34,179 bases of DNA from Bacteroidales bacterium (GTDB lineage: Bacteria; Bacteroidota; Bacteroidia; Bacteroidales; JAADJA01), in assembly GCA_030596605.1 (NCBI GenBank), contig JAUVJI010000035.1, positions 1 through 34,179 on the forward strand. Direction: 5' to 3'. A program made the position numbers and the translations under genes. The notes beneath the pieces are model-generated. The model did no database searches and had not been told where the DNA came from. It saw nothing but the letters and a program-made list of their open reading frames with translations. This document shows positions 1 through 18,200 of the stretch, one piece after another; the stretch's first letter is position 1, and each line of letters begins with the position of its first letter.

Positions 1-1330
1 AGTCTATTCGCGGCTCAGTAGATATGTTTGACTTGATATTATAATCTTTTCCCTTTTCAATTGTGCAGTATTTCATTGATGAGGAAGCACCATAATTGTC
101 GCTATAATCATGGAAATAAATCCCATCCCAACCACCAACAAGTCCGTTGAGTGAAGTGAACGTTATGAGACTGTCCGCTGTACCTTCTGCAATAATTTCC
201 CCTCCTCGGAAATTATTATAGGAATAATGTTGGCCAATTTGAATAAATACTGATGTATCTAGTTTTACAGTATTTCCCGGTTCGATGGTAAGTGTACTAT
301 TTGTGTTTTGTTTGGCAATAATTATGTCTCCAACTACAATGTATTCGCCACCGAAGTTATACCATGTTTTATTGATGCTTTGGACCCCGGTGCCAACATA
401 TACGGTTGAAACAGTATTTGTTATATGCTGGACATCATTGGGGGCAACAGCATAAATATCATAGCCATCTGAATTTGTGATTGTACATAAGTCTATTCGC
501 GGTTCAGTTGACCCGTTTGATTTGATATTATAATCTTTTCCCTTTTCAACTGTGCAGTATTTCATTGATGAGGCCGCACCATAATCATCGCTGTACGGAT
601 GGAAATAAATCCCATCCCATCCACCAACAAGTCCGTTGCGTGAAGTGAATGTTATGAGACTGTCCGCTGTACCTTCAGCAATAATTTCCCCTCCAAGAAA
701 TTGGTTATAAGAAGTTTGATCACCAACTTGAAAAATTACTGATGTATCTAGTTTTACTGTAATTCCCGGTTCGATGGTAAGTGTACTATTTGTGTTTTGT
801 TTGGCAACAATAATATCATTCAGAATAACATAATCACCACCTCCGAAATTATACCATGTTTTATTGATGCTTTGAGTTCCCCCGTCAACATAAACAGTAG
901 AAGTAGAAGCAGTGATATGTGGAACGCTGTTCGGATCCTGAACATATATATCATGATTCATTGAGTTGGTGATAATACAACTGTCAATTCGTGGCTGCAA
1001 TGTGGTTACACATCGAATGTTATAGGAATTGCCATTTTGAATACTACAGTTTTTTAACTCTGAAATGGATTCGAAACTATCACTATCGTTATGGAAATAA
1101 ATTCCATCCCATCCTCCGGACTGTCCATTTATTGATGTAAAAGTAATCAGGCTGTCGGCAGTTCCAATGGCAAATAATTCCCCACCATAATTTTGATTGT
1201 AATAAATATAATTCCCCACCTGAAGCTGAATTGTCGTGTCAAAATATATTGTATTTCCAGGCATAATTGTTAATCTGGAATGTGAATTAATTTTTGCAAT
1301 GGTTACATCTCCCAAAACTGCATATCCCAA
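1..1330 (-). repeat. Intragenic tandem repeat of about 489-492 bp (163-164 aa), two strongly similar copies plus a more diverged third
   Basis: agtctattcgcggctcag at 1, agtctattcgcggttcag at 490, and gtcaattcgtggctgc at 983. Long blocks such as 'gtccgttg.gtgaagtgaa.gttatgagactgtccgctgtaccttc.gcaataatttcccctcc' recur in the first two units. Confidence 0.9.
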
Positions 1331-3502
1331 TGAATTAAAAGGCCAGGTTTGGTTGCTCGAAATAATTCCTCCGTCCATGGCAATTCCGCTTATTGTGTTG
1401 TTATAAGTAGCTATTCCCGAAACGGTTGGGAAAGAATAATTGGGAGAGAAATAATAAATACCGTATTTATTATTGCTTATATCGCAATTAAAATAATTGG
1501 GAGAAGATCCCAAATCAGCAAATCGAATACCCGCTATGCCATTGTTTGAGAGGCTGCAATTTGATACTGATGGATTTGAATTTTGCAAATAAAGTCCATT
1601 TTCTGTATTAAATTCAAAATTACATAAGTCAATAGAAAGATCAGCATTGTTAAGTCTTACCCCTTGTCCGTCGGACAAGGTAAATAAACAGTTTTGCAAA
1701 AGTGGTTCATTAGTATTTTCGCAATAAAAATTTGCATCCCTTGTACCATATCCGGCTTTTTCTATCGTAACATAATCCAATTGTGAAGAAACACCATTAT
1801 CGCTGTTGGTATTAAAATAAACTCCGTTCCAGACTCCTGCTTCAGAAGTAAAGGATGTCATTAATATTGGATCTAATGCCGTTCCTTCAAAGGTCATATT
1901 TGCCTGGCCAATCTCTAATCCGGTATTAGTGGAGAAAAATATCTCAACACCGGCTTCTATAACATGTGTCCCCCCGGTAAATGAAATATCGGTAGTAGCC
2001 CAAAAAGGGCTATCGGCATACTTTAAAGTGTCAATTGCGTTCAGGCTTCCGGTTAACTGGGTATATCCTGAAATATTTACTGATAAATCATGGAGGACAA
2101 TGTTATCATCACCTGTACCATCGAATTTTATCAAATACTGAATATACTGTTTGTACAGCCCGACAATAACAGGGTTATCCTGTCCTGCCTCAATCCAGCT
2201 TCCCCATTGTTGATCCGCTCCCGCAAGCCTGTATATAAGGTTATATTCATTATACATATTACTATATATGTCATAAGTAAGGCTTACAATTTCGCGTTCT
2301 TCTCCCAATTGATAAAAAGGATACGACAAAAAACTTCCTTTGTGGACACCATCCAAAACTAAGTCAACCGCTGTATATCTTGTATTATGAATAGGTTCAC
2401 CGGAAATATTCTCGCCGCCGGCAAAAACGATTTGTCCGTTGGATGTATATGCAGCACCATCTTTGCGAGCTAAATTTAACATATCGGCAGCCGTAACCCA
2501 TATTAAAGAACTAAGATTGTCTATATCGGCGTAATAAATTTTATCACTAAGTCCTCCGGTATCCTCTCCTCCTATTACAGTTATCCAACCATTATTACAT
2601 GTTGAAGAGTGGTTGCTTATATCCACCGGGAGTGCAGCTGCTGATGACCATGCCGAACATGTTCCGTTAAGGTTTAAATCTGAATAATAAACCGTATTGT
2701 ATTTTGTGCCGGTATTGTCATATCCACCCATTACTATAAGGTGGTTATCGTAACATACCATTGAATGCTTATTTCGTGCTTCCGGCAATGAATTAGTAGC
2801 AGTAAAGGCTGAAATATCTCCGTTAATTCCCGCAATCTTTGTAAAATATACGGCATTGTTTGCTGTATTTTCAACTGTGCTGCTTGTACCTCCAACCACA
2901 TAAATAAAACCATTTAAAAATATTGCAGTGTGGCCCCAAAGTGGTTGGGGTAAAGTAACTGAGCTTTCAGTCCAATCTCCGAGTGTGCCGTCAGAATTAA
3001 TTTTTGTATAATAAATTTTATCCACTGGAGCTCCGCCCTTTCTGCCCCCTAAAATATACATATACTCATTGCTTGCCACCATTGCATGATCGGCCAATGA
3101 ATCCGGAATTGAGTCGTAAATTGTCCATGTGCTGTTTCCTGTGGTTTGCATGGTGGCCCGATATACCATATCGGAAAAATTCGTTCCGTTGAAACCGCCA
3201 GACAGATAAACGTAGTTTTTCCAACGTGTAACCTTATGTCCGGTTAGCGTTTGAGGAAGGTCATTTGCAGTAATCCAATTATTAATTTCGGTGGCTTTAT
3301 ATGCAAGATAAACATTATTACTTGCGACTACTACATTATCAAGGTAGCCAGCAGAAAAATCGGCATCAGTTGTTTGTGTAAAAACAACCTGAGCACGACT
3401 GCACACTGGTATGGTATTTAAAATACCCATAAATGCCAAAAAAAGGAATAGATTTCCGATTCTCTCTTTTTTTAAGGAAAATAAAAATTGATAGTTTTTC
3501 AT
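1..3502 (-). CDS. Large secreted protein: signal peptide, about six Kelch-like repeats, then right-handed beta-helix-like region with long tandem repeats; 3' end lies off the left edge
   Basis: Own translation from ATG at 3502..3500 (MKNYQFLFSLKKERIGNLFLFLAFMGILNTIPVCSRAQVVFTQ...) stays open for about 1167 codons to position 2. Kelch-type GG motifs: YVYLSGGFNG, YMYILGGRKGG, FIYVVGGTSS, HLIVMGGYDN, WITVIGGEDTGG, QIVFAGGENIS. Then NGVYFNTNSDN/DGIYFHNDSD/YCTVEKGKDYNIKSN beta-helix-like units. Absent from the ORF track because no stop lies in the window. Confidence 0.85.
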   Translation of the reverse strand, partial: MKNYQFLFSLKKERIGNLFLFLAFMGILNTIPVCSRAQVVFTQTTDADFSAGYLDNVVVASNNVYLAYKATEINNWITANDLPQTLTGHKVTRWKNYVYLSGGFNGTNFSDMVYRATMQTTGNSTWTIYDSIPDSLADHAMVASNEYMYILGGRKGGAPVDKIYYTKINSDGTLGDWTESSVTLPQPLWGHTAIFLNGFIYVVGGTSSTVENTANNAVYFTKIAGINGDISAFTATNSLPEARNKHSMVCYDNHLIVMGGYDNTGTKYNTVYYSDLNLNGTCSAWSSAAALPVDISNHSSTCNNGWITVIGGEDTGGLSDKIYYADIDNLSSLIWVTAADMLNLARKDGAAYTSNGQIVFAGGENISGEPIHNTRYTAVDLVLDGVHKGSFLSYPFYQLGEEREIVSLTYDIYSNMYNEYNLIYRLAGADQQWGSWIEAGQDNPVIVGLYKQYIQYLIKFDGTGDDNIVLHDLSVNISGYTQLTGSLNAIDTLKYADSPFWATTDISFTGGTHVIEAGVEIFFSTNTGLEIGQANMTFEGTALDPILMTSFTSEAGVWNGVYFNTNSDNGVSSQLDYVTIEKAGYGTRDANFYCENTNEPLLQNCLFTLSDGQGVRLNNADLSIDLCNFEFNTENGLYLQNSNPSVSNCSLSNNGIAGIRFADLGSSPNYFNCDISNNKYGIYYFSPNYSFPTVSGIATYNNTISGIAMDGGIISSNQTWPFNSLGYAVLGDVTIAKINSHSRLTIMPGNTIYFDTTIQLQVGNYIYYNQNYGGELFAIGTADSLITFTSINGQSGGWDGIYFHNDSDSFESISELKNCSIQNGNSYNIRCVTTLQPRIDSCIITNSMNHDIYVQDPNSVPHITASTSTVYVDGGTQSINKTWYNFGGGDYVILNDIIVAKQNTNSTLTIEPGITVKLDTSVIFQVGDQTSYNQFLGGEIIAEGTADSLITFTSRNGLVGGWDGIYFHPYSDDYGAASSMKYCTVEKGKDYNIKSNGSTEPRIDLCTITNSDGYDIYAVAPNDVQHITNTVSTVYVGTGVQSINKTWYNFGGEYIVVGDIIIAKQNTNSTLTIEPGNTVKLDTSVFIQIGQHYSYNNFRGGEIIAEGTADSLITFTSLNGLVGGWDGIYFHDYSDNYGASSSMKYCTIEKGKDYNIKSNISTEPRID

Positions 3503-3904: not shown

Positions 3905-6900
3905 TTAGTCTTTCACACATCTTATTGAAAAGGCGAAAGTCTTGGTGTTATTTGCCCTATAAACACCGGTTTGTGTTGTGACCAAATGTCTACTGATACT
4001 AGTGGATCCGGACAATGAGGAGGACCAGAAATAAGTATACACACCAAAATTTTGAAAAGTACCATCCCAATAGCGGCCTCCTGCAAGAATGGCTTCAAAT
4101 CCTGATGTGCCTCCTTGTTTAAATTGTGTGCCTATATCGGTGCCCCGCCATGCGACATCATCACAAACAACGGTAGGGTCGAGAAGTTGTTCCATAATAC
4201 ACCATTCCGGGTGTGAAGGAATATGCCATCCAGCCGGACAAATGCCCTGACTACCGGCAACTGAGCCATATTCCATCATCTCATCCCATTGGTAAAAACC
4301 ACCATTCAGATCACAATTGGCTGTATTATCATCATAGCAGTATTTTTCGATGGTTGGGTTGTTTGATGGACTATTTGATCCATTAATCATAGTTCCGATA
4401 TTCAGGTTTTCTGTCATCCAGCATTGTGTTCCGATTTGTAAAGTGCTGTAAGATTGGCCATCACGGGCATCAATAATGTCATCACCACACGAGGTAAATC
4501 CTGCCGCTGGAAGCTGCTCTGATTTTCCATAATTAGATAACCAAACATCATTTTTATCCGGGTTATTAACCTGTCCGTCCATATTTACATCACCGGATAA
4601 ATAACCTGATTGTCCTATCTGGGGATACCATGCTTCGATTCCATCAAGTTCATTGATAGTACCATCGGCATTGGCATCGCCGCCAATCATTCCAAATTTA
4701 CCACCTCCCAAATCACTTTGGTTATCGCTATAAGCCTGGTCGGCAGCTGTTGTAAAATCATATGAATATATTCCACCTGACTCTGCTAATTGATTTGCCG
4801 ACAATACAGGAAGATGATTTCTATGCCACAATACAACAAAAAGATTTTCCGAAATGGTATAGTCAAATGATAGGGTTGAATTTCCATTCAGGTCAACAAT
4901 ACTTCCATCCATAAGGATAAAAGCTGCTTGTCCGCCCAGGCTGGTTGCAGAGGTAGCTGAATTTACATCCGCTGCATCCCTGAATTCAACCAATAGCCAG
5001 TCAACAATGTCACTGTTTGGAATACTTGCTACATTCTCACCGCCATTATATTCCCAGGGATACACATTGTAAGGTTGTTCGATGGGTAAAATGCTATTGA
5101 GATCAGCATTCATGTCTGTGCCGTTGAATGGACCTTCGAAGAAGGCAGTAATGTCAACCTCAAGACCCACAGATTCAACTAATTCAGCCTGAACAATAAG
5201 CTGTGGATATCCTTCAATCCCATTATTTTCGTTATAGAGTGCTTCAACCTCATCTTCTGTCAGCCCACGATCGTACATCCTGATATCATCAATCTTACCG
5301 TTAAAATTCCTGCTGCCCCCATACCAACGACCAATTTGAAGATAAGGGTTGCTATAATTAATTGTTGACGATGTAGCTGTTAATTCATCCTGCAAGATAC
5401 CATTCATGTATGTTTTCAGAGATAATCCATCTTTTATAAATACAAGATGTTTCCATTGATTATTAGGAAGTGTAAATGCTGTTGCCCCAAGTGGAGCTGT
5501 ATAAAAAACATAATCACCTGTACTCTGATCATGTTGTATAACCCAGTTGGCAGAGCCAGAATGATTATTATCAATAATGTCAACATAAGTGCTGTTTATA
5601 GCATCCTGTTTTACCCAAACCGAAATGGTAAAATCCTGATAAGTAAACCAGTTTCCGGCACTAATCCAATCATCATGTCCATCAAAATCATAAGCTGAGT
5701 TGTTATTTCCAAAACGGTCTGTTGAAAGTTGTGCTCCCTGGGCATTTCCATTATGTCCGTTCCCGCTTTCATCATTGGCATTCCCGTTAAACGGATACCA
5801 GGCAACAAGCCCGTCTTCGAGGTCAATATTTTGGCTGGTGCCGGTGGATATGATTAGGGTGTCGGTGTAAGTTCCTACAGCAAAATCTTTATTGAGGATT
5901 ACAGGTATTTCAAGAGAATCGCCCGGCAGTATTGAAGCTGATGACATGCCTGTTGTATCGTAGCTGTAAGGTTGTTGTAAACCAAAAAGATCGTTTATAT
6001 ATAGCTGGCAATTGCTTGTGTTTTTTAACCAGCTTGAAAGGGTATCCTTATCGGGAGTAATTTCATTCATTCCAAAATCCAAAGAGCCTGGTAAAATTCC
6101 CATTGTAGGGTTACAATCAACAACAATAATGTAATCTATCTTATTTGAGAAATCGGAATATATACCATCAGAAATAAGTAGCGAAACAGAATTAATGCCA
6201 GATTCGGAATATACATATTCAGGGTTTTGGTCGTAGCTGTCAATCGTTCCGTCATTTTGAAAATCCCATTCCCAGCTTATTGGCGTACCTGTGCTAAGAT
6301 CAGTAAAATGGATATTATCCCCAAGGGAAATAGTTGTATTTGAAGCAAAAAAATCAGCTTGTAAAGGTGATGTAAATTGATAACTTAAATAGGGATAGCC
6401 CTGATTGTTGTAACCATCAATATCCCAATAGTCATCGTTACCTGTATCACCATGGGGGTTACCCACAAAATCCCAGGCATAGGATAAACCGGCTGTGGTT
6501 TCATTTGTAAAGGTTGCCACATCTTTCATTTCATCAGACGTTTTTCCTGTTCCTCCGCCCGGACTTGACATCGTTCCTGATGTTTCATAATCCCAGAAAG
6601 AATTGTCAACACTTGCAAACCAGTAAATTTCCCCAACCAAACCCCCTACATAAGAACCGGTTCCTGTAACAATCCCGGTGCTATAGCAATTCCAGATATT
6701 GGTTTCATGTCCAAAGCCCACGAGACCGGCTACATGGGAAACGCCATTCACATTACTTCTGGAGTAGCAATTGTTTACAGCTGTTACACCACATGTTCCT
6801 GCTAAACCTCCAACATTGTTGTTTCCGCTTACACTTCCGGTACTAAAACTATTGGTGATGGTGGCCGAAGCGATTGAATATCCTACTAAACCCCCAACTT

Positions 6901-7573
6901 TCTCACTCCCACTCACACTACCGGAGCCTGAGCAATAACTTATAGCGGAACGAGAACTTTGCCCAACAAGCCCTCCAACATTATCTCCTCCGGAAACATG
7001 ACAAGAACTATGACAGTTTGTTACATAAGCCTGGGTCCATCCTCCATTGGATTCCCCTACCAGGCCTCCAACCCTGTCCGTTGTACCGGTCACATAACCG
7101 GAACTGGTACAGTTGTTGATTGTATGAACAGAATTAAAACCCACTAAAGCCCCAACACCGGAGTCACCGTTTATATTAACATTCGTAAGATTTGTATTAT
7201 CAAGTGTGCCCCCCGAAAAACCAAACAACCCCTGATCAAAATGGGATGGACGATTAATATACAAGCCATTAATTGAATAACCCTGGCCATTGTAACTCCC
7301 TGAAAAATTTGTTGTACTATTTCCAATAGGAATAAATCCTTCGCCTCCATTCCAGTTTTGGGTGTCAGTTGCATCAATATCTGCTGTTTGTATAAACACA
7401 CTTGTCCATGAACTTGAATTTGTACTCACCCACAATAAATTGTCTAAGGTGGCAATTTGATATGGGTCTGCTCCAGTTCCCGAACCTGTGGGTTGAATTT
7501 GAGCATTGGCTGTTGTTGTTATTAACACAAATAACAATAGCCCTAAACTAAACTTTTTATAAAAATATCTCAT
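3905..7573 (-). CDS. Multidomain secreted protein: GLUG-type repeats, PKD domain, LamG/concanavalin-like domain, VDW-LVE/RHRNHL-type module with dockerin-like Ca-binding loops, C-terminal FISUMP domain
   Basis: ORF 3905..7657; likely start MRYFYKKFSLGLLLFVLITTTANAQ at 7573 (signal peptide). GGLVG repeats; PKD-like ISWEWDFQNDGTIDSYDQNPEYVYSESG; LVAWYPFNGNANDESGNGHNG...LQIGRWYGGSRNFNGKIDDIRMYDRGLTEDEV; C-term DARDGQSYSTLQIGTQCWMTENLN...FSIRCVKD. Confidence 0.9.
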   Translation of the reverse strand: MRYFYKKFSLGLLLFVLITTTANAQIQPTGSGTGADPYQIATLDNLLWVSTNSSSWTSVFIQTADIDATDTQNWNGGEGFIPIGNSTTNFSGSYNGQGYSINGLYINRPSHFDQGLFGFSGGTLDNTNLTNVNINGDSGVGALVGFNSVHTINNCTSSGYVTGTTDRVGGLVGESNGGWTQAYVTNCHSSCHVSGGDNVGGLVGQSSRSAISYCSGSGSVSGSEKVGGLVGYSIASATITNSFSTGSVSGNNNVGGLAGTCGVTAVNNCYSRSNVNGVSHVAGLVGFGHETNIWNCYSTGIVTGTGSYVGGLVGEIYWFASVDNSFWDYETSGTMSSPGGGTGKTSDEMKDVATFTNETTAGLSYAWDFVGNPHGDTGNDDYWDIDGYNNQGYPYLSYQFTSPLQADFFASNTTISLGDNIHFTDLSTGTPISWEWDFQNDGTIDSYDQNPEYVYSESGINSVSLLISDGIYSDFSNKIDYIIVVDCNPTMGILPGSLDFGMNEITPDKDTLSSWLKNTSNCQLYINDLFGLQQPYSYDTTGMSSASILPGDSLEIPVILNKDFAVGTYTDTLIISTGTSQNIDLEDGLVAWYPFNGNANDESGNGHNGNAQGAQLSTDRFGNNNSAYDFDGHDDWISAGNWFTYQDFTISVWVKQDAINSTYVDIIDNNHSGSANWVIQHDQSTGDYVFYTAPLGATAFTLPNNQWKHLVFIKDGLSLKTYMNGILQDELTATSSTINYSNPYLQIGRWYGGSRNFNGKIDDIRMYDRGLTEDEVEALYNENNGIEGYPQLIVQAELVESVGLEVDITAFFEGPFNGTDMNADLNSILPIEQPYNVYPWEYNGGENVASIPNSDIVDWLLVEFRDAADVNSATSATSLGGQAAFILMDGSIVDLNGNSTLSFDYTISENLFVVLWHRNHLPVLSANQLAESGGIYSYDFTTAADQAYSDNQSDLGGGKFGMIGGDANADGTINELDGIEAWYPQIGQSGYLSGDVNMDGQVNNPDKNDVWLSNYGKSEQLPAAGFTSCGDDIIDARDGQSYSTLQIGTQCWMTENLNIGTMINGSNSPSNNPTIEKYCYDDNTANCDLNGGFYQWDEMMEYGSVAGSQGICPAGWHIPSHPEWCIMEQLLDPTVVCDDVAWRGTDIGTQFKQGGTSGFEAILAGGRYWDGTFQNFGVYTYFWSSSLSGSTSISRHLVTTQTGVYRANNTKTFAFSIRCVKD

Positions 7574-7705
7574 TGCAATAAAGTTTATGTTAAAATGATT
7601 TAAATACCTTATGAGGAATAGAATTCCTTGATTTGCTTGAGTTGTGCAAGTACTCAAAAAAACTATTTAGAACTAAAATAAATTATTACATCAGTTTTTA
7701 GATAG

Positions 7706-9256
7706 TTAATTCTTAATAAATACCTTATTAGTTGTAAAATTTTCAGATGTTTTTACCTTTACAATATAATAACCGGTTTTATAAATAGGCTCTCTGGTTA
7801 ACTCCTGATGCAGCTTGAAAGAGGATACTTTCTTCCCAAGCATATCAAATACTTCTGCTTCTCCTTTTGAGGAAGCGGGTATTTTTACATAAACCTGATT
7901 TTCGTAAGAATAAATTGAAACTTCGGAGTAAATCTCTTCTTCAATTATGTTAGGCTCTCCAAAATGCAACAGAAACCGATTTGGGTTATCCAATGGATGA
8001 GTAAAATAATTATAGCTGTTTTGATATCTCAGATTAATCATTTCTCCTTCCTTTAGGTCTTCAAGGTAAATGGGAGTATAAGGATCAAAGCCTTCAATCC
8101 CGGAAACAGTAATTGTACATTCTTTTTCTAATCCTAATTTAAAACCTACAGGTATTATAGGTGTGTCAGTTGTGCTGATAAAATCATGGGGCAACACATT
8201 AACCGAATATGATATATTCCCTTCTGCACCCGAATAAATATTAGGCGCTTCATCCACATTATAAAGCTTTTCCAGGTCATATAAACCATCAAAACCTTTG
8301 GTTGCTCCTTCCATGAAAATAATTACAGCTTCATCCTCGTAATTATTAGCAATTGCTTTTAGCCGTAAGCTTTTGTAATTACTTTTCTCAGCATCTTTAT
8401 AAAATATCTGACTGTTATGAGTTCGCAGACTTTGAGGTAGGATGAGATTTGCAGGACTTGCAAAGGCCCTTACCCAAAATCCCTGTGTTGCTGGAATTAT
8501 TCCATCTGTTTTCCCATTATATGATCTGTCATTCCCGGATAAAAAGGGATTCCATCCCTTGAAAGTAGCATTATCATAAACTACTATCCAACCACCAACA
8601 TTTGTTCTGTTCCAGCTGGTATCCAAATTCCATTCTATGGTTGAAGGATATGGATTTCCAATAAGGTTCCAGCCGGTGGCATTACTTGTTGGAGTATATG
8701 CCAGTGAAACATTATAATCTCCATTATTTAGATTACCTTCATAATTCACTGTTGTTGGCCCGGTAAGGGCATCTGAAACCCATGCGGAATATCCTGTTGT
8801 TGCATTCAACGGCATGCTCAAGGGTTGAACAAGGTATGTCCATGTGCTGTCTGTTTCATTCCACTGTTTTAAATAAATATCAATATAAGTTTCAATGGTT
8901 GCATTCGCCATTGGAGAAGAAACCAGGTGCCAGCGCTCTGAAGTGAGGTATTGTTCCATTGATCCGGGAACATCTGCTGTATTATGAAGCAATGAACCAT
9001 AACCGTTTTGGTCAGCTTTGAGGATCAATCCCGGTGTTCCGGCATCATTTGCCAGAACTCCGTTTACTGTTAAGTCACCCCGGTTAACAAGCTGACTGCC
9101 GCTGCCAATGTCCAGGTTTTGATTTTGAACCGTTGTACCGGATGAAATATATATCTTTCCTCCGTTGGCAACATTTAAGGTGCTTTGCCCAATTGTGTAA
9201 TTGGAAATAATCAGGAATAATAAAACCAGTATTTTTATATGTAGTTTTTTACTCAT
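7706..9256 (-). CDS. Secreted protein with C-terminal T9SS type A-like sorting domain
   Basis: N-terminal signal peptide; C-term SIYSYENQVYVKIPASSKGEAEVFDMLGKKVSSFKL...GYYIVKVKTSENFTTNKVFIKN matches the T9SS CTD pattern. Confidence 0.85.
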   Translation of the reverse strand: MSKKLHIKILVLLFLIISNYTIGQSTLNVANGGKIYISSGTTVQNQNLDIGSGSQLVNRGDLTVNGVLANDAGTPGLILKADQNGYGSLLHNTADVPGSMEQYLTSERWHLVSSPMANATIETYIDIYLKQWNETDSTWTYLVQPLSMPLNATTGYSAWVSDALTGPTTVNYEGNLNNGDYNVSLAYTPTSNATGWNLIGNPYPSTIEWNLDTSWNRTNVGGWIVVYDNATFKGWNPFLSGNDRSYNGKTDGIIPATQGFWVRAFASPANLILPQSLRTHNSQIFYKDAEKSNYKSLRLKAIANNYEDEAVIIFMEGATKGFDGLYDLEKLYNVDEAPNIYSGAEGNISYSVNVLPHDFISTTDTPIIPVGFKLGLEKECTITVSGIEGFDPYTPIYLEDLKEGEMINLRYQNSYNYFTHPLDNPNRFLLHFGEPNIIEEEIYSEVSIYSYENQVYVKIPASSKGEAEVFDMLGKKVSSFKLHQELTREPIYKTGYYIVKVKTSENFTTNKVFIKN

Positions 9257-9273: not shown

Positions 9274-10215
9274 TTAGTCTTTTAGGCATCTTACAGGATA
9301 ATAATTATACTTATAGAAAGCAGCCCGGTATGATTGCTGTCTATTATAATCAAACTCTCTGATCCAGGCATAACTTGATCCTGAATATTGTTCGGATGAT
9401 GTTATAAAAACTTCAAAATATTTCTGACCGGTAAATCCTCCTGAACTGGTTCTCCAACCACCTCCCAAAAGTGTCATTCCACTTGAATTAGTTGCTCCTG
9501 TATTTGGGCCATTCCAATGGGTATATCCAGCTTCCTTTAATTGGCCTCCAATATCATAACCCCGCCAGCCAGTTTGAGATGGACTATATACATTCGGGTC
9601 TAAGAAATTTTCCATTAGAAACCATTCCATATCAGATGGTACATGCCATCCATCAGGACAAATACCTTGTGTTCCTTGGGTAGTCGTATATTCCATCATT
9701 TCATTCCATTGGTATAAGCCCCCATAAGTATCACAGTATGAAGTATTGTGTTGATAACATGATTTCTCAATTATTCCATTATTATATTGGCCTCCCGTAG
9801 ACATAGTACCAACATTCAAGTTCTCCGCCATCCAACATTGCCCATTAATATCCACGGTGGCATAGGATTGCCCGTCACGGGGATCGGTAAGTGGGTTGCC
9901 ACATACAAAAGGGGTCATGGTACTTGTTCCATATGCAATCTCTTTCCAGGCATTTTCTCCCTCTAAGTAAGCATAGTATTTATTATCTGTTGTGTTAAAT
10001 ACTATCAAACCATTTGCGGGGTTCTGAATGTCCGTAATTTGATTTTGGGCCATCCTTGGAACCAGTAAACCCTTATCAGTACTTTGTAAATCCAAAATTG
10101 CCGAAGCATCAGGATCAGTTCCATCGTTGTTGATTGATACGCCTTGTGCATTAACCGACAGATTAAATAAAAGTGTAAAAACCAGGATACCTGTTAGTGT
10201 AAATTTTGCCTTCAT
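9274..10215 (-). CDS. FISUMP domain-containing secreted protein
   Basis: ORF 9274..10248; better start MKAKFTLTGILVFTLLFNLSVNAQ at 10215. DPRDGQSYATVDINGQCWMAENLNVG...WNEMMEYTTTQGTQGICPDGWHVPSDMEW...PVRCLKD; N-terminal ASAILDLQSTDKGLLVPRM...NPANGLIVFNTTDNKYY resembles tail-fibre-like Bacteroidota segments. Confidence 0.9.
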   Translation of the reverse strand: MKAKFTLTGILVFTLLFNLSVNAQGVSINNDGTDPDASAILDLQSTDKGLLVPRMAQNQITDIQNPANGLIVFNTTDNKYYAYLEGENAWKEIAYGTSTMTPFVCGNPLTDPRDGQSYATVDINGQCWMAENLNVGTMSTGGQYNNGIIEKSCYQHNTSYCDTYGGLYQWNEMMEYTTTQGTQGICPDGWHVPSDMEWFLMENFLDPNVYSPSQTGWRGYDIGGQLKEAGYTHWNGPNTGATNSSGMTLLGGGWRTSSGGFTGQKYFEVFITSSEQYSGSSYAWIREFDYNRQQSYRAAFYKYNYYPVRCLKD

Positions 10216-10301
10216 ATTACCTTGATTTATTGTAGATTTAAAATACATTAATTGCTCACGAGCATATATACGGTTGTAATCAGGTAAGGATGGGAGAAAT
10301 A

Positions 10302-10356
10302 TAAATTCGGTTGAAATGGACTTATATCCGGTAAAGAAAGATATATATCCGGTAAA
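10302..10356 (-). promoter_or_regulatory. Phased direct repeats (21-bp period), candidate LytTR-type binding sites upstream of the FISUMP gene
   Basis: TATATCCGGTAAA at 10323-10335 and 10344-10356 are identical with a 21-bp period. A degenerate third copy, TAAATTCGGTTGA at 10302-10314, is in the same phase (9/13 matches). CGGT cores at 10308, 10329 and 10350. Confidence 0.6.
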
Positions 10357-10359
10357 AGA

Positions 10360-11106
10360 TTATATCATTTCCAGCAATTTCAGGAAACTATCTTTTTTAC
10401 GCCTGGCAACCGGCAATGTTGAATTATCCTTCATCACTACCGCTCCTCCTTCGGCCTTGCTGTAATGATCGATGTATTTGATATTGACCAGATGTGATTG
10501 GTGGATCCTGTAAAACCCAAATCCGTTCAACATTTCATCAAAATCTTTCATGTTTTTGGATACCATGATTTCTTTGCCATCAATAAGGTAAAACCGTGTA
10601 TACCCGCCATCCGACTCACATCGAATAATGTCGGAAGTATTTACCAGGTAAATACTTTCTGCTGTTTTAAGAACAAGCTTTTTATTTTCGGGGCTATTGT
10701 TTTCGAGGTTGGCATATAGGGCATTCAATCTTAAACTGATATTTTCCTGCTCCACCAAGTGTTGAGCTTTGCTCAAAGCTTCCATCAACTTGGCAGGATC
10801 AACGGGTTTTAATATGTAATCAATAGCTGAGAAATCAAATGCCCGTACAGCAAATTCATCATAAGCAGTAATAAATATAATCTTAAAATTAATCTGATCA
10901 AATTTTTTTAGCAGATCGAACCCACTTCCGTCAGGCATATTAATATCGAGTAATACCAATTCGGGCTTGTGTTTTTGTATGGCCTCAAATCCGGTTTGTA
11001 CATCTTCTGCCTCTGCAATAAGTTCTATTTCAACAGGACTGAGCTTAAGTAAATTGGCAATGCCCTTCCGCGACCTGGCCTCATCATCAATGATTATTAC
11101 CTTCAT
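10360..11106 (-). CDS. LytTR-family response regulator (REC + LytTR DNA-binding domain)
   Basis: MKVIIIDDEARSRKGIANLL...LVLLDINMPDGSGFDLL...IIFITAYDEFAVRAFDFSAIDYILKPVDPAKL; C-term DIIRCESDGGYTRFYL...FYRIHQSHLVNIKYIDHYSKAEGGAVVMKDNSTLPVARRKKDSFL. Start at 11106 rather than 11133. Confidence 0.95.
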   Translation of the reverse strand: MKVIIIDDEARSRKGIANLLKLSPVEIELIAEAEDVQTGFEAIQKHKPELVLLDINMPDGSGFDLLKKFDQINFKIIFITAYDEFAVRAFDFSAIDYILKPVDPAKLMEALSKAQHLVEQENISLRLNALYANLENNSPENKKLVLKTAESIYLVNTSDIIRCESDGGYTRFYLIDGKEIMVSKNMKDFDEMLNGFGFYRIHQSHLVNIKYIDHYSKAEGGAVVMKDNSTLPVARRKKDSFLKLLEMI

Positions 11107-11163
11107 ATTTTTCTTTATTTTATTGACGGTCAAAAATATGTAGTTTGTACCATATTTCCGCTT

Positions 11164-14100
11164 TTAAATTTTAACAAATGGAATAATAAATTTAATCCTT
11201 GTCCCTTTTACATTCCCGCCAAGATCAATTGAATCCTTAATTTCCATGTAGTACTTCTTGTTTTTTTGACCTTTGTTAAGGATTTCGATTCTTTCGCGTG
11301 TGATGATGGTAGCCAGGGATTGATGCTCTTTTGCTTTGATATTGTTTAATTTTTTTGCTGCATGGATTCCAATTCCGTTGTCTTCTACAATAAATAGAAT
11401 TGTTTCATCGAGAAGCATAAAACTGATATTGATTAATCCCGGGTGATCAAGGTGTTTAATACCATGTTCAATGGCATTTTCAATGAAGGGTTGTGCCATC
11501 ATTGGGGGGATAGAAACAGTATCTATGTCGAGTAATGGATCAATATCAATTTCATAATCAAATTTGTTATCATAACGTAATTTCTGTAGATCAAGGTAAT
11601 TGGTAAGGGTTTGCACCTCCTTTTCAAGTGTTATGAATTCTTCCCTGGAGTTATATAATATGGACCGGATCAATTCTGCAAACCTTGAGAGGTAGCTTCC
11701 GGCTTCAACAGGATTGTTTTCAAAAATAAAGCTTTGAATAGAACTGAGGGAATTAAAAATAAAATGTGGATTCATTTGAGATCGCAGGAGTTTTTGTTCC
11801 AAAATAAGAAAACGGTTTTGCTCCTTTATTTTTTTCTCGCGGAATTTAATAATGAATATTACAGATGAGATAACCAGTAGAATTTCCAATAAATAAAACC
11901 AGGTGGTTTTCCAGAAAGGAGGTCGAATAATCAATTGAATGGTCAGCCCTGTTTCATTCCAAATACTATCCATATTGGTGGCCTTAATACGAAATGTATA
12001 GCGACCCGGATCTACATTGGTATATCTGGCAACCCGATTAGTGCCTTGCGTGTAATTCCAATCGCTATCAAAATTTTCAAGTTTATATGCAAATGAGTTT
12101 AGTAACGGGTCGGAAAAATCCAGTGCAGCAATTTCAAATGAAAAATAATTTTGGTCATACTTGAATTTTATAGCTTTATTTTCATTGAAATTGAATTCAA
12201 TTGCTTCGTCAAAAAGTTTAAAACCTGTAATGGCAATGCGTGGCGGCAGGTAATTTGTATTCAAATTTTCAGGATCAATCACTGATATTCCATTTTTACC
12301 ACCAAACAATAATAGGCCGTTTTTAAGCTTAAAACCTGCTCGTGAAAACTCATTGTCCTGTAATCCGTCTTTTTCATAGAAGTTTTCAAAAGTTAAATTA
12401 TCAGTTTCCATTTTGGAGATTCCGGATTTTGTGCTGACCCATAAAAACCCTTCATGGTCTTCAAGAATTCCACTAACCTGATTGTTGGCTAAACCATCTG
12501 TTTCGGTGATGTGGGAAAAAGATTTGTTCTTCGGATCAAATTTATTCAGTCCTTTTCCACCGACCCAAATAGTACCTCTTGAATCCTGAAAAATGCATGA
12601 TGCTTCATCTCCCCAAAAAGCTGAAGAATCATTATGATTTGGTTTGAACTGATCTATATGACCACTTTTTGTTTCAAGTCGGTTAACACCTTGATTTGTT
12701 GTGCCCACCCAAATATATTCATCTTGGTCTTCAAAAATAAAACTGATCAAATGTGATGACAGATAAACTTCCTTTTGCTCATTGTAAGCGATAAATTTAT
12801 TTGTCTTAAGATCAAGCATACAAACCCCTATATTTGTGCCAATCCACAATTCATCGGGCGGATTATAATCCAATGACCAAATGGTGTCGTTGATCAAGCC
12901 TGTGCTGTTTTCATTAGAATATCGATAAATCTTTTCAACTTTTTCCCCTCTTATTTTATACAATCCCTCGTAAGTTCCCACCCACATACATCCTGAATCA
13001 TCTTTGATGTAAGAAAGTATCTTCTTGTTAATTATATTATTGATTTCTTTTTCATTGATTTTTGGGGGAGGAGGATTGAAATTTTCATTTATCAGGGAGA
13101 ATGAAAAATACGGAGAGTTATTTTTTATATAAATTCCGTTATCTGTTTTAAACCGTACATTTCCTTTATTATCAGTGTATGCTTCAGTGATTTTTGTAAA
13201 ATCAAATGAAAAATAATTCTCCCGGCCATAAGAACTGTATTTTGAAGTCACCGGATCCAGACAAATAAACCTGCTTTGATTTCGGAATAATGGCCAAATA
13301 AAACTTCCATCATGGGCCAGGCCTACAACAGGTGAATTATAAGTTTGGTTTGGAGGAATAAACCTATCATCTGTAAATTTCCCTTTATCTTTATCAAAAT
13401 TGTACAAGCCTTGTGCGCCCCATATACCTATCCAATACTTGCTTTTACTGTCCTGAAAAAAATCGTTATACCAGTCAGCTTTTAATGAACTCTCATTTAA
13501 CTTATAATGCTTATTTATATCAAGATCAGGATTTACTATTTGAAACCCCCTGCCTGACCACAGGCCAATCCAGATATCGCCGTCATCATCTTCCATTAAA
13601 GCTGAAATTTTGTCTGATACAAGCTGATAAGGTGATTTGCTTTTTGTGCTGTATTGAAATAGTTTATTAAAATCCTGATCGAAACATTCAAGACCTTTGC
13701 TTGAAGTGCCTATCCAAATCCTGTTTTTACTATCCTCCAATATACATGTTATATGATTGGATACGGGTGAATTATCATTTTCAGGAATGTGGTTTATTTG
13801 CCTGAATTTATTTTTGGATGGGCGGTAAATACTAACACCGTCTGCCGTTCCGATCCAAACATTATTGTTTCTATCAATGTAAATTTTATTTACATGATCA
13901 TTTACCAGTGAATGAACACTATTGTCGTTGTGAGTTAAATGCCGGAATTCATTTTTCTTCTTATTCAGAATATATACACCATTTCCTGTCCCAATCCATA
14001 AATTTTTATTAGCATCCTCCTGTATGCTGAATGTAGAGATCGGAAGGGTTTTTTGAAATGTTTCGTTTTCAATATCAAAAGTGTATAGCCCATCAGTACC

Positions 14101-14829
14101 GCTCACCCAAAAGGTTCCATCGGAATCTTCGAAATATGTGGCTACATCCTTATCTCTTTTTTTAGTCTTGTCTTCAGGATTTGCTTTATACTCATAAAAC
14201 AATTCTTTGTCAGTGTTAAACCGAAATATGCCCATATACCTTCCACCCACCCATAAATCTCCCTTTTTATCTTTATAAATAGTATGATAATAATATGTAT
14301 CGATCATGGTTGGTTTGGTATGATCGAATTTTTCGATTATTTTTTCATCTGGGTAAAATTTATGCAGAACACCATCTGCAGCTTCAATCCATAAATTGTC
14401 ATTATCATATAAAAGCGCTCTGATAAAATTACCTGATAATGTATTTTCAACTGAATCATTGTGATAATACCGGATGAAAGTATTATCCGTGTTAAGTTGG
14501 TTCAGCCCATTTTTGGTACCTATCCAAATATTGCCGATTGTGTCTCCGGTGATGCACGTTATGAGATTGTCTGAGATAGTGGAAGAATCTTGCGGATCAT
14601 TTAAATACTGAATGAACTTATAGCCATCATACCGATTCAAACCATTTATGGTGGCTATCCAAATAAACCCGTTCTTGTCCTGATAAATATCCAGGATATA
14701 ATTGCTGCTTAATCCGTCTTTTTTGGTAAGATGATCAAATTTCAGGTATGGATCCTGAATCATGGTGGGCTGAGTTTTACCCGGGGAAAGTATAAAAAAG
14801 AATAATATTAATAATACCCAAAATTTCAT
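11164..14829 (-). CDS. Sensor histidine kinase: periplasmic two-component-regulator propeller repeats, Y_Y_Y domain, TM, LytS-type His_kinase domain
   Basis: Repeated 'IWIGT..GLN/FDxxxxxF' propeller units; Y_Y_Y-type region; TM TTWFYLLEILLVISSVIFII; LRSQMNPHFIFNSLSSIQSFI...PPMMAQPFIENAIEHGIKH...EDNGIGI. Confidence 0.95.
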   Translation of the reverse strand: MKFWVLLILFFFILSPGKTQPTMIQDPYLKFDHLTKKDGLSSNYILDIYQDKNGFIWIATINGLNRYDGYKFIQYLNDPQDSSTISDNLITCITGDTIGNIWIGTKNGLNQLNTDNTFIRYYHNDSVENTLSGNFIRALLYDNDNLWIEAADGVLHKFYPDEKIIEKFDHTKPTMIDTYYYHTIYKDKKGDLWVGGRYMGIFRFNTDKELFYEYKANPEDKTKKRDKDVATYFEDSDGTFWVSGTDGLYTFDIENETFQKTLPISTFSIQEDANKNLWIGTGNGVYILNKKKNEFRHLTHNDNSVHSLVNDHVNKIYIDRNNNVWIGTADGVSIYRPSKNKFRQINHIPENDNSPVSNHITCILEDSKNRIWIGTSSKGLECFDQDFNKLFQYSTKSKSPYQLVSDKISALMEDDDGDIWIGLWSGRGFQIVNPDLDINKHYKLNESSLKADWYNDFFQDSKSKYWIGIWGAQGLYNFDKDKGKFTDDRFIPPNQTYNSPVVGLAHDGSFIWPLFRNQSRFICLDPVTSKYSSYGRENYFSFDFTKITEAYTDNKGNVRFKTDNGIYIKNNSPYFSFSLINENFNPPPPKINEKEINNIINKKILSYIKDDSGCMWVGTYEGLYKIRGEKVEKIYRYSNENSTGLINDTIWSLDYNPPDELWIGTNIGVCMLDLKTNKFIAYNEQKEVYLSSHLISFIFEDQDEYIWVGTTNQGVNRLETKSGHIDQFKPNHNDSSAFWGDEASCIFQDSRGTIWVGGKGLNKFDPKNKSFSHITETDGLANNQVSGILEDHEGFLWVSTKSGISKMETDNLTFENFYEKDGLQDNEFSRAGFKLKNGLLLFGGKNGISVIDPENLNTNYLPPRIAITGFKLFDEAIEFNFNENKAIKFKYDQNYFSFEIAALDFSDPLLNSFAYKLENFDSDWNYTQGTNRVARYTNVDPGRYTFRIKATNMDSIWNETGLTIQLIIRPPFWKTTWFYLLEILLVISSVIFIIKFREKKIKEQNRFLILEQKLLRSQMNPHFIFNSLSSIQSFIFENNPVEAGSYLSRFAELIRSILYNSREEFITLEKEVQTLTNYLDLQKLRYDNKFDYEIDIDPLLDIDTVSIPPMMAQPFIENAIEHGIKHLDHPGLINISFMLLDETILFIVEDNGIGIHAAKKLNNIKAKEHQSLATIITRERIEILNKGQKNKKYYMEIKDSIDLGGNVKGTRIKFIIPFVKI

Positions 14830-14948: not shown

Positions 14949-16793
14949 TTAGGGTACCTGGGTCATATTCCCAATATTTAAATGCCAGATGTCATTTTTA
15001 TCCGGATTATTGATTTGTCCATTCATATTATAATCTCCATTATGATATCCTGCTTTACCGATTGAAATAGCCCAAATTGATGATTTATCAGAATTGTCAA
15101 TTACACCATCACCATTTCCGTCACCACCTATCATACCATACACCCCGGTAGCAAGGTTTTTTTGTGCTGTTGTTCCTCCAAAAGCTTTATCAGAAGCAAT
15201 TGTAAAATCATAGCTGTATATGCCTTGAGATTCTGTTACCGCATAATTACTCATGACACCGAGATGATTTCGATGCCGGATGACAATAAATAAATTATTT
15301 GTTACAGATGCATTAAAATTTAAAAAACTTACACCATCAAGTGATACGATATTTCCGTTATTTAAAATAAATCCGGCTTGAGTAGCAATTGTTGTACTTG
15401 TATTTGCAGAAGCAGCATCTGTCGCATCTCTTAATTCAACCAATATCCAGTCAACCACATTGCTATGTGGGATTGCAGTTACTGATTCTGTTCCGGTATA
15501 GTTCCAGGGTAGTGTATAGTATGGCTGATTTAGCGGGAGTATGGCATTGATGCCTGACTCCATTTCTGATCCATTATACGGGCCTTCAAGAAAGGCTTTA
15601 ATATTTACTGAAATTCCATCATTGGTCATAGATTGAAGGAAGATATTTCTTGACCAGAATGCATCATCGGTATAGCAGTTGTATATCCCGTAATGAGCCG
15701 AAGTAGCAGGAAACAAAAATGATAAAGTTGGAGTCCCTCCACCCAAAAAATCAGGATGCCCTATTAGTGATGTATCATATAAGAACCACTCGAAACTTTC
15801 ATTACCCATCATAGCCAGAAATTGCAATCCCTGTAATATAGGCTGATCATTAACCAAATAAACATGCTGGTCAGCAGTTCCATTTAATTTAGTTTGGTAA
15901 TTATTCCAAACACCGTTGTTCGTTAAATTGCCATCAATTTGTAATATTAAAGAATACCCGGATGGATTATTTCGGGTTATACCATTATTTATTAAATCGC
16001 CGGAAATATTCACTAAACAACTGCTCTGGTCAAAATTTTGAAGGGTCCCGTTTAATATGATCTCTCCAGAGAAAGCTACACCCGTGCCAACCGTAATCGT
16101 CCCTGATAATTCTACATTTGCTCCCATCGAAACTCCAACAATATAAGCTCCGGCATCCATGTCAAGCTTTAAATCATTGCCCAATATCGTAACGTTAAAC
16201 AGGTACATCCCGGAAATAGAAAGTTTACTGTTATCCGGCATCAGAAGTAAATTATTATTTAAGTCTGCAATACAATTTAAGAAACTAATATCGGTATCAG
16301 CAATCAGTACTCCGGAAGATTTCATGTCAGTGAAATAGAAACAGCCATATACATTATTATTTAAGCAGGAAATGTGCTGATCAGTTGTACCGGTTAAAAC
16401 CATTTCATAATTGGTAATCAATCCATCATTAACAATGTCACCATTTACGATCACACTTAATACCAGATCAACTGGATTATTTCTGATAATCCCATTATTT
16501 ATCAGATTACCATTAATATTTAATATGAAGTAAGAGATAGGATTGTTCTGAACAATTCCTGTTGAGGTAAGTGTTATATTATTACATGCAACAAAGTTGG
16601 ATATGGTAACAATTCCATCAATAATTACATCATCTGATGGTCCCGGAACAGTATTACCAATCCATGTCAATGGATCGTCCCAATCGCCTCCTGCCGGATA
16701 AGACTGTATTTGGGCTTCAGCAGTAAAAGAAAAAGTAAGAAGACAAGCTACCCATGTTACGAATGTTATACTGTGAAAAATTTTCATCTGCAA
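14949..16793 (-). CDS. Secreted repeat protein (beta-helix-like NGxLINNGIxRNNP units) ending in the VDW-LVE/RHRNHL/dockerin-like module
   Basis: Signal peptide MKIFHSITFVTWVACLLTFSFTAEAQ; C-term KAFLEGPYNGSEMES...VDWILVELRDATDAASANTST...FIVIRHRNHLGVMS...GMIGGDGNGDGVIDNSDKSS...GDYNMNGQINNPDKNDIWHLNIGNMTQVP. Confidence 0.85.
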   Translation of the reverse strand: MQMKIFHSITFVTWVACLLTFSFTAEAQIQSYPAGGDWDDPLTWIGNTVPGPSDDVIIDGIVTISNFVACNNITLTSTGIVQNNPISYFILNINGNLINNGIIRNNPVDLVLSVIVNGDIVNDGLITNYEMVLTGTTDQHISCLNNNVYGCFYFTDMKSSGVLIADTDISFLNCIADLNNNLLLMPDNSKLSISGMYLFNVTILGNDLKLDMDAGAYIVGVSMGANVELSGTITVGTGVAFSGEIILNGTLQNFDQSSCLVNISGDLINNGITRNNPSGYSLILQIDGNLTNNGVWNNYQTKLNGTADQHVYLVNDQPILQGLQFLAMMGNESFEWFLYDTSLIGHPDFLGGGTPTLSFLFPATSAHYGIYNCYTDDAFWSRNIFLQSMTNDGISVNIKAFLEGPYNGSEMESGINAILPLNQPYYTLPWNYTGTESVTAIPHSNVVDWILVELRDATDAASANTSTTIATQAGFILNNGNIVSLDGVSFLNFNASVTNNLFIVIRHRNHLGVMSNYAVTESQGIYSYDFTIASDKAFGGTTAQKNLATGVYGMIGGDGNGDGVIDNSDKSSIWAISIGKAGYHNGDYNMNGQINNPDKNDIWHLNIGNMTQVP

Positions 16794-17015: not shown

Positions 17016-18200
17016 TTAATTTGGCAACTGGCTGCTATTTCCCTGGTTTATGAGCCATATGTCATTTTTATCCGGGTTATCAGCCTGCCCATCCAAATCA
17101 AGATCACTTTGCAGATAACCACTTTCACCGGCTGTATTTGACCAGTTAATTGTTTTATCGACCGAATTGATAGTACCACTGGCATCGGCATCACCGGCAT
17201 ACATTCCATAAACCCCATCTCCCAGATTTTTTTGTGCATCGATTCCATAAGCCTGGCCGGTGCCTGTTGTAAAATCGTAATTATGTACGCCATCCGTTAT
17301 CAAAACCGGATTATTTGTTAAAATAGGTAAATGATTTCTATGCCAGATTACAATGTAAAGATTATTTGAATATGAGCTTGAAAATTCAATCACACAATTG
17401 CCACTACCCAATAAAAAAGCCGCCTGTCGCTCAATCATTGTTCCACCTGTAGCTGAAGCGGCATCCGTTGCATCACGTAATTCAACCAATATCCAATCTA
17501 CTACTCCGGCAAAGGCTTCGGAGGATTCAGTTCCTGAATAACCCCAGGGAGAAATATTATAAGGCTGAGAAGTTGGAATATACCCTCCGGCTTTCAAATT
17601 AGTTTTCATATATGGCCCGATGTAAGGACCATCAAGGTTCACTTTTACGTTTAATAACTGGGAAACAAGATTAAAATAAACTCTGAATCTTAATGAATAA
17701 TCATCAGGGCTTGCATTAAAAGTATAAACTGAATCTGTTTTTAAGTCAATTAAAACATTATCACGAATGTCAAGAAGGTGAATAGTAACAGCCGGATCAA
17801 ATGTATAAAGCTCAGTTGCGCTAATAGTGTAGGAAGTTTCGGCACCCACATCAAAACCCATTTGTACAAAATAATCAGTTGAAATAGGGGTTGGAAGAGC
17901 ATTTACTGCAAGTTTACAACAGGGTATAATTGAATACAACTGTGGTGCTTCATAAATCCCCATTAGTTTATAAGCATCATAACTGGGATCGAAGCCAGCA
18001 GTAGCATCAGGTATAAATACTATAATGGTTTGATCGCTGTAACCATTTCCAACAGCTGTTAATTTCAGGAGATTATCAATTGTTTTTAAATCCTTGAAAT
18101 AATCAATTTTTTCAAGTAGCTGGCCATGAATATTTAATGTAGCTACTGAGAATAACAATATTAATATTAAGCTTGCAAATGTTCTTTTTGATATTTTCAT
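17016..18200 (-). CDS. Secreted protein ending in the VDW-LVE/RHRNHL/dockerin-like module
   Basis: Signal peptide MKISKRTFASLILILLFSVATLNIHG; C-term VNLDGPYIGPYMKTNL...VDWILVELRDATDAASATG...IVIWHRNHLPIL...GMYAGDADASGTINSVDK...SDLDLDGQADNPDKNDIWLINQGNSSQLPN. Confidence 0.85.
   Translation of the reverse strand: MKISKRTFASLILILLFSVATLNIHGQLLEKIDYFKDLKTIDNLLKLTAVGNGYSDQTIIVFIPDATAGFDPSYDAYKLMGIYEAPQLYSIIPCCKLAVNALPTPISTDYFVQMGFDVGAETSYTISATELYTFDPAVTIHLLDIRDNVLIDLKTDSVYTFNASPDDYSLRFRVYFNLVSQLLNVKVNLDGPYIGPYMKTNLKAGGYIPTSQPYNISPWGYSGTESSEAFAGVVDWILVELRDATDAASATGGTMIERQAAFLLGSGNCVIEFSSSYSNNLYIVIWHRNHLPILTNNPVLITDGVHNYDFTTGTGQAYGIDAQKNLGDGVYGMYAGDADASGTINSVDKTINWSNTAGESGYLQSDLDLDGQADNPDKNDIWLINQGNSSQLPN

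Follow-up and report, generated by a model that had tools for sequence, protein, structure and literature searches.

A conserved triple repeat array behind a LytTR regulator gene, a probable operator of FISUMP surface-protein genes in a Bacteroidales bacterium

Introduction

What is the role of the 21-bp phased direct repeats that separate the gene of a LytTR response regulator from that of a FISUMP-domain surface protein in a Bacteroidales bacterium, and which protein would act on them? The DNA sites of LytTR proteins are poorly predictable, as the family shares no single consensus (PMC4847170), and the literature searched contains little on LytTR operators of Bacteroidota. Published LytTR repeats are 9 bp long with 12-bp spacers, have a strong bias to a position 10 bp upstream of the -35 element, and include the cores ACCACTTAT and ACCGCTTAT (PMC6193735). 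The window analysed here is the whole 34,179-nucleotide stretch of DNA that contains the repeats. Comparisons of the sequence indicate that the array is very probably the operator of the adjacent LytTR regulator, which would be phosphorylated by the neighbouring histidine kinase, bind the three half-sites, and activate the FISUMP surface-protein genes.

Results

Organization of the locus

The genes around the array are encoded on the minus strand:
11164..14829, minus strand: LytS-type histidine kinase with a Reg_prop propeller, Y_Y_Y, and His_kinase domains (Pfam)
10360..11133, minus strand: LytTR response regulator with Response_reg and LytTR domains (Pfam) and the DNA-contact motif FYRIHQS
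9274..10215, minus strand: FISUMP-domain surface protein, the first gene behind the array (Pfam PF09603, TIGR02145)
7706..9256, minus strand: protein with a T9SS type A sorting domain (TIGR04183), 17 bp behind the FISUMP gene
3905..7657, minus strand: FISUMP/LamG/PKD/GLUG surface protein (Pfam and NCBIfam)

The regulator (P0001) matches PF00072 and PF04397 above the cut-off and contains FYRIHQS, as expected of a LytTR response regulator; the DNA-contact motif of the LytTR domain has been described as FhRhHRS (PMC4227749). Its start is likely the ATG at 11106. The kinase is its presumed partner. The two genes upstream of the kinase, at 14949-16793 (614 aa) and 17016-18200 (394 aa), have no Pfam or NCBIfam match. 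The ATG at 10215, given as the FISUMP start in the initial annotation, fits the start distances of the orthologues, which favour it over an in-frame ATG at 10248. The gene of the T9SS-sorted protein is likely part of the FISUMP operon, and that at 3905..7657 possibly so. The locus thus encodes two FISUMP-domain proteins (9274-10215 and 3905-7657), a domain that is mentioned in a paper on diversity-generating retroelements (PMC4159848). No gene of the T9SS machinery is present among the genes downstream of the array.

Three half-sites with a period of 21 bp

The array is located between the LytTR stop codon (10360-10362) and the FISUMP ATG. The 13-mer TATATCCGGTAAA occurs at 10323-10335 and 10344-10356, offset by exactly 21 bp, and a degenerate copy at 10302, TAAATTCGGTTGA, is in phase with both and matches 9 of 13 positions, as first described. 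Read on the minus strand, the repeats resolve into three half-sites:
10345..10353, minus strand: half-site 1, ACCGGATAT, from the leave-one-out position weight matrix (PWM), whose triple has the top rank in the locus, and the PWM scan of the window; its extended form, ACCGGATATATATCT, spans 10339-10353
10324..10332, minus strand: half-site 2, ACCGGATAT, 21 bp from site 1, from the orthologue arrays and PWM tests
10303..10311, minus strand: half-site 3, ACCGAATTT, extended to ATATTT, 21 bp from site 2; this is the degenerate copy

The half-sites start at 10353, 10332, and 10311, in 21-bp steps, and the whole array reads ACCGGATATATATCT-TTCTTT-ACCGGATATAAGTCC-ATTTCA-ACCGAATTTATATTT, directly behind the stop codon. 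A PWM-free phased-triple score gives 21 bp as its best period (p = 0.005, 200 shuffles), and the PWM scan finds no other array of its kind in the window. At +4/+5 the half-sites depart from the classic GTT core. The period of 21 bp is also that of the BtsR site, ACC(G/A)CT(C/T)A-N13.

Conservation was examined behind 12 close LytTR orthologues, 11 from genomes of the genus and one from another family. The array directly follows the regulator gene in all 12, with three half-sites spaced 21/21 bp and a further 41-42 bp to a TAnnTTTG-like box; 9-bp cores, 12-bp spacers, and a period of 21 bp recur in every orthologue examined. Loss of the repeats where the genes are kept, which the initial annotation had named as evidence against a regulatory role, is therefore not seen among these 12. 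The motif-free repeat score peaks at 21 bp behind 10 of 11 orthologues, and in eight of them shuffles give p values of 0.005 to 0.015. With the leave-one-out PWM, trained on the other loci, the true triple is the best match in 11 of 12 loci, each two to four kilobases long, and periods of 15-20 and 22-27 bp yield nothing comparable. In the twelfth locus, L018, it is outscored only by another array, which follows a tandem LytTR paralogue. The register of each training triple had been chosen by eye on first inspection and the loci are homologous, so that these tests are not fully independent.

In 33 of 33 half-sites, positions +1/+2 read CC and position +6 reads T, and the family consensus is ACCG(A/G)AT(A/T)T. 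Neither the unit ahead of half-site 1 nor the one following half-site 3 is conserved in this family (clade A below), and the array therefore has exactly three half-sites. These are LytTR-like direct repeats of about 9 bp with spacers within 11-13 bp. Individual half-sites are identical to the published BrsR half-site ACCACTTAT, which is unchanged as site 3 in L021 and L183, or read ACCGTTTAT, which we take to fit the classic LytTR consensus.

A promoter box at a fixed distance from the array

Two features lie between the array and the FISUMP gene:
10263..10270, minus strand: -7 promoter box TATATATG, TAnnTTTG-like, from the spacing of TAnnTTT[GA] across arrays and a check for a -33 element
10253..10264, no strand assigned: inverted repeat TGCTC-GT-GAGCA, which overlaps the presumed transcription start and the last bases of the -7 box

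The box differs from the Bacteroidetes -7 consensus TAnnTTTG at one base. It begins at 10270, 41 bp beyond the point where half-site 3 starts. In 33 of 38 arrays of clades A-C, TAnnTTT[GA] follows the last half-site at a distance of 41 or 42 bp (shuffle mean 0.65, maximum 3). The published geometry of LytTR activators adds up to the same distance, 9 + 10 + 4 + 19 = 42 bp, if the -33 element is taken as 4 bp and its spacer as 19 bp. Accordingly, the array occupies the position upstream of -35/-33 that is usual for LytTR activators. There is no TTTG in the 28 bp upstream of the box, and the window promoter therefore has no -33 element; TTTG is likewise absent at the usual -33 spacing from all 18 clade A arrays examined.

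The initial annotation had also listed an unphased core at 10271 and the inverted repeat. Both exist. However, the core is not a stray site, as it abuts the -7 box, which covers most of it, and the inverted repeat sits at the -7 box and start region, not in the operator. Of the 18 clade A arrays, 11 have an inverted repeat near the -7 box, whereas shuffles average 4; several of these repeats are plain AT palindromes, and the loci are related. It lies just behind the box in L015, L151, L157, L014, and L153, and has the form TTTGC...GCAAA in several relatives.

Relation to known LytTR operators

The array resembles the operators of S. mutans HdrR/BrsR and other LRS operons in its 9-bp half-sites, 12-bp spacers, and ACC cores, and in being set about 10 bp upstream of -35/-33 (PMC6193735). 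By contrast, LRS operons have two half-sites instead of three, a membrane inhibitor protein instead of a histidine kinase, and an operator that drives the regulator's own operon. The partner here is a Reg_prop/His_kinase protein, and the PWM scan of the window finds no array in front of the kinase and regulator genes; there is therefore no sign of autoregulation. The LRS-like repeats predicted in Bacteroides, TCCGGTATTCA-11 bp-ACCGGAAATCA followed by TGTA-19 bp-TATCTTTG (PMC6193735 Table 3), share with the array the ACCGG core, the phylum, and a direct repeat upstream of a TAnnTTTG box; however, they comprise two repeats with a period of 22 bp, are autoregulatory, and belong to a transmembrane LytTR protein without a Reg_prop kinase. 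E. coli YpdB and BtsR are, as here, regulators of LytS/LytTR two-component systems, and YpdB recognizes a tandem repeat at the one promoter that it targets, but these systems have two half-sites, 7-TM pyruvate sensors, and transporter targets (PMC4847170, PMC5552118).

The operators of RcoM-1 and CoxC likewise comprise three LytTR half-sites in direct orientation, two helical turns apart (PMC11347149). They differ in their TTCNNGCA core and in serving one-component CO sensors. Binding to operators of this class requires three half-sites, and the exactly three conserved half-sites of clade A may be subject to a similar requirement. CoxC is a repressor, and the regulator studied here might likewise repress from the array instead of activating. 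However, the CoxC operator overlaps the -35 element (PMC11347149), whereas the window array ends upstream of the -33 position. A promoter without a -33 TTTG also fits dependence on an activator, although this is not decisive, because Flavobacterium promoters may lack the -33 motif anyway (PMC7366714). We consider repression unlikely.

Half-site spelling and the regulator tree

A further 98 LytTR genes, of which most are paralogues within the genus, were scored without a PWM. The mean phased-triple score behind them is 19.4 at a period of 21 bp, compared to 16.0-17.0 at the other periods from 12 to 35 bp, and 21 bp is the best period behind 30 of the 98. The half-sites are spelled ACCG(A/G)AT(A/T)T in clade A, ACCGNNAACTGATTT in clade B, and GGCGAATAATAATT in clade C; types D, E, and F are less certain. 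When the array labels are placed on a tree of 109 regulators, 63 of which carry no label, since not all have a visible array, 14 changes are required, against 43.6 in shuffles. Therefore, half-site spelling follows the regulator tree. Arrays are present in 16 of 17 clade A rows and 15 of 16 clade B rows, and the clade B exception (L243) is cut off by a contig edge. A few fixed positions of the LytTR domain, including 194 and 206, separate clade A from clade B, but there are too few clades to derive a specificity code from these residues.

The genome encodes 16 LytTR domains, and cross-recognition of related half-sites is conceivable, so that the array might instead be bound by a different regulator, from the LytTR or another family, that acts on the promoter. 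This is very unlikely: across genomes the array adjoins the encoded regulator and changes with its clade, and other LytTR clades have half-site spellings of their own.

The clade A exception, L024, is a LytTR orthologue in genome G015 that has no array behind it. An array-like sequence is present elsewhere in G015 (L152), with no LytTR gene within the flank examined, and precedes a homologue of the gene behind the array of its nearest relative, L153; the array thus stays with its target promoter. The distance from the stop codon to the array varies from 4 to 93 bp in orthologues, whereas the spacing between array and -7 box is a constant 41-42 bp. The repeats do begin right behind the stop codon, as a duplicated tail of the LytTR gene, a transcript-end element, or a chance tandem repeat with no regulatory role might, but these distances, which also discount a dinucleotide or terminator origin, and the G015 array in front of a target-gene homologue leave that explanation with next to no probability.

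Some loci have additional arrangements. In L016 (G016:C388) and L018 (G011:C236), LytTR genes are arranged in tandem, and every one of them has a clade A array of its own behind it. The next gene behind an array is there another LytTR regulator, followed in G011 by a FISUMP gene 73% identical to P0003; such clusters are possible regulatory chains. Behind a short LytTR protein at L205 (G000:C203), three 21-bp phased half-sites of the TACGTTCA type (p = 0.015), near the classic LytTR consensus, precede a small secreted or lipoprotein gene.

Scans of the genome and the order

The initial annotation had proposed a motif scan of the genome, and this finds the window array alone: the zero-mismatch triple pattern occurs once, at that array. 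Triples with up to 2 mismatches and pair-plus-box patterns give no wider regulon, as this locus alone exceeds control levels; the genome is a MAG that is 88% complete, and further targets may be missing from it. Beyond the array, the 13-mer has one lone copy in the 4.34 Mb genome, on contig C91. This copy and an 83% match on C152 were rejected as further operators, because the PWM scan shows no array at either.

In 17 genomes of the genus, every zero-mismatch triple match lies directly behind a LytTR gene. Two matches in other families also lie directly behind LytTR orthologues, of 70% (L183) and 74% (L184) identity. In a third family, a very good array with a score of 49.6 (L191) precedes a homologue of the window gene at 2-3502, on a short contig stretch without a LytTR gene. 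At about 338-620 of L191, a clade C type repeat (TGCAAATAATAATTCA / GGCGAATAATAATTTA) lies about 200 bp beyond the clade A array, and the gene behind both is possibly under two LytTR regulators. Across 393 genomes of the order, the triple pattern also matches many unrelated places, mostly tandem minisatellites, as does a reversed control. Zero-mismatch matches outside LytTR loci were not counted, because many of them are minisatellites or isolated matches with no LytTR gene in the flank and the reversed control matches many genomes.

Discussion

Direct observations are the presence and exact spacing of the array, its conservation together with the regulator, its constant distance to the -7 box, and its near-uniqueness in the genome. 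The array is best read from them as a canonical LytTR activator operator, in a triple form, for the local kinase/regulator pair. The Reg_prop propeller of the kinase would sense something outside the cell, and the kinase would phosphorylate the adjoining LytTR regulator. The phosphorylated regulator would bind the three ACCG(A/G)AT(A/T)T half-sites, which a step of 21 bp, or two helical turns, places on the same face of the DNA, and recruit RNA polymerase to a promoter with a -7 box and without a -33 box. This would raise expression of the FISUMP protein, the T9SS-sorted protein encoded 17 bp further on, and perhaps the large FISUMP/LamG protein. We infer the binding by the regulator, its phosphorylation by the kinase, activation in place of repression, and the extent of the operon. 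The initial proposal that the regulator controls FISUMP/T9SS genes is thus supported by the conserved array, its covariation with the regulator clade, and the published geometry and core, except that the predicted target is an operon of surface-protein cargo and not the T9SS machinery.

LytTR direct repeats, three-repeat operators, and ACCGG-type repeats in front of Bacteroides TATCTTTG promoters have already been published. The literature searched, which included few subscription papers, yielded no description of a three-half-site operator linked to Reg_prop/LytTR pairs, of such operators recurring behind paralogous regulators, or of clade-specific spelling.

There is about an even chance that kinase/regulator genes of the LytTR type form cassettes in this Bacteroidales lineage, each with a private operator right behind it, in which duplication and the joint drift of regulator and operator yield insulated pairs whose recognition code could be read from genomes alone; the tandem loci L016 and L018 would then be chains of cassettes in which each regulator drives the following one. 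In many genomes the operator adjoins its regulator, with at least three clade spellings (A, B, and C) on one fixed geometry. Matched pairs of protein and operator can therefore be obtained from sequence alone, which makes LytTR specificity directly testable by swaps, and targets can be assigned to uncharacterised Reg_prop/LytTR systems in Bacteroidota.
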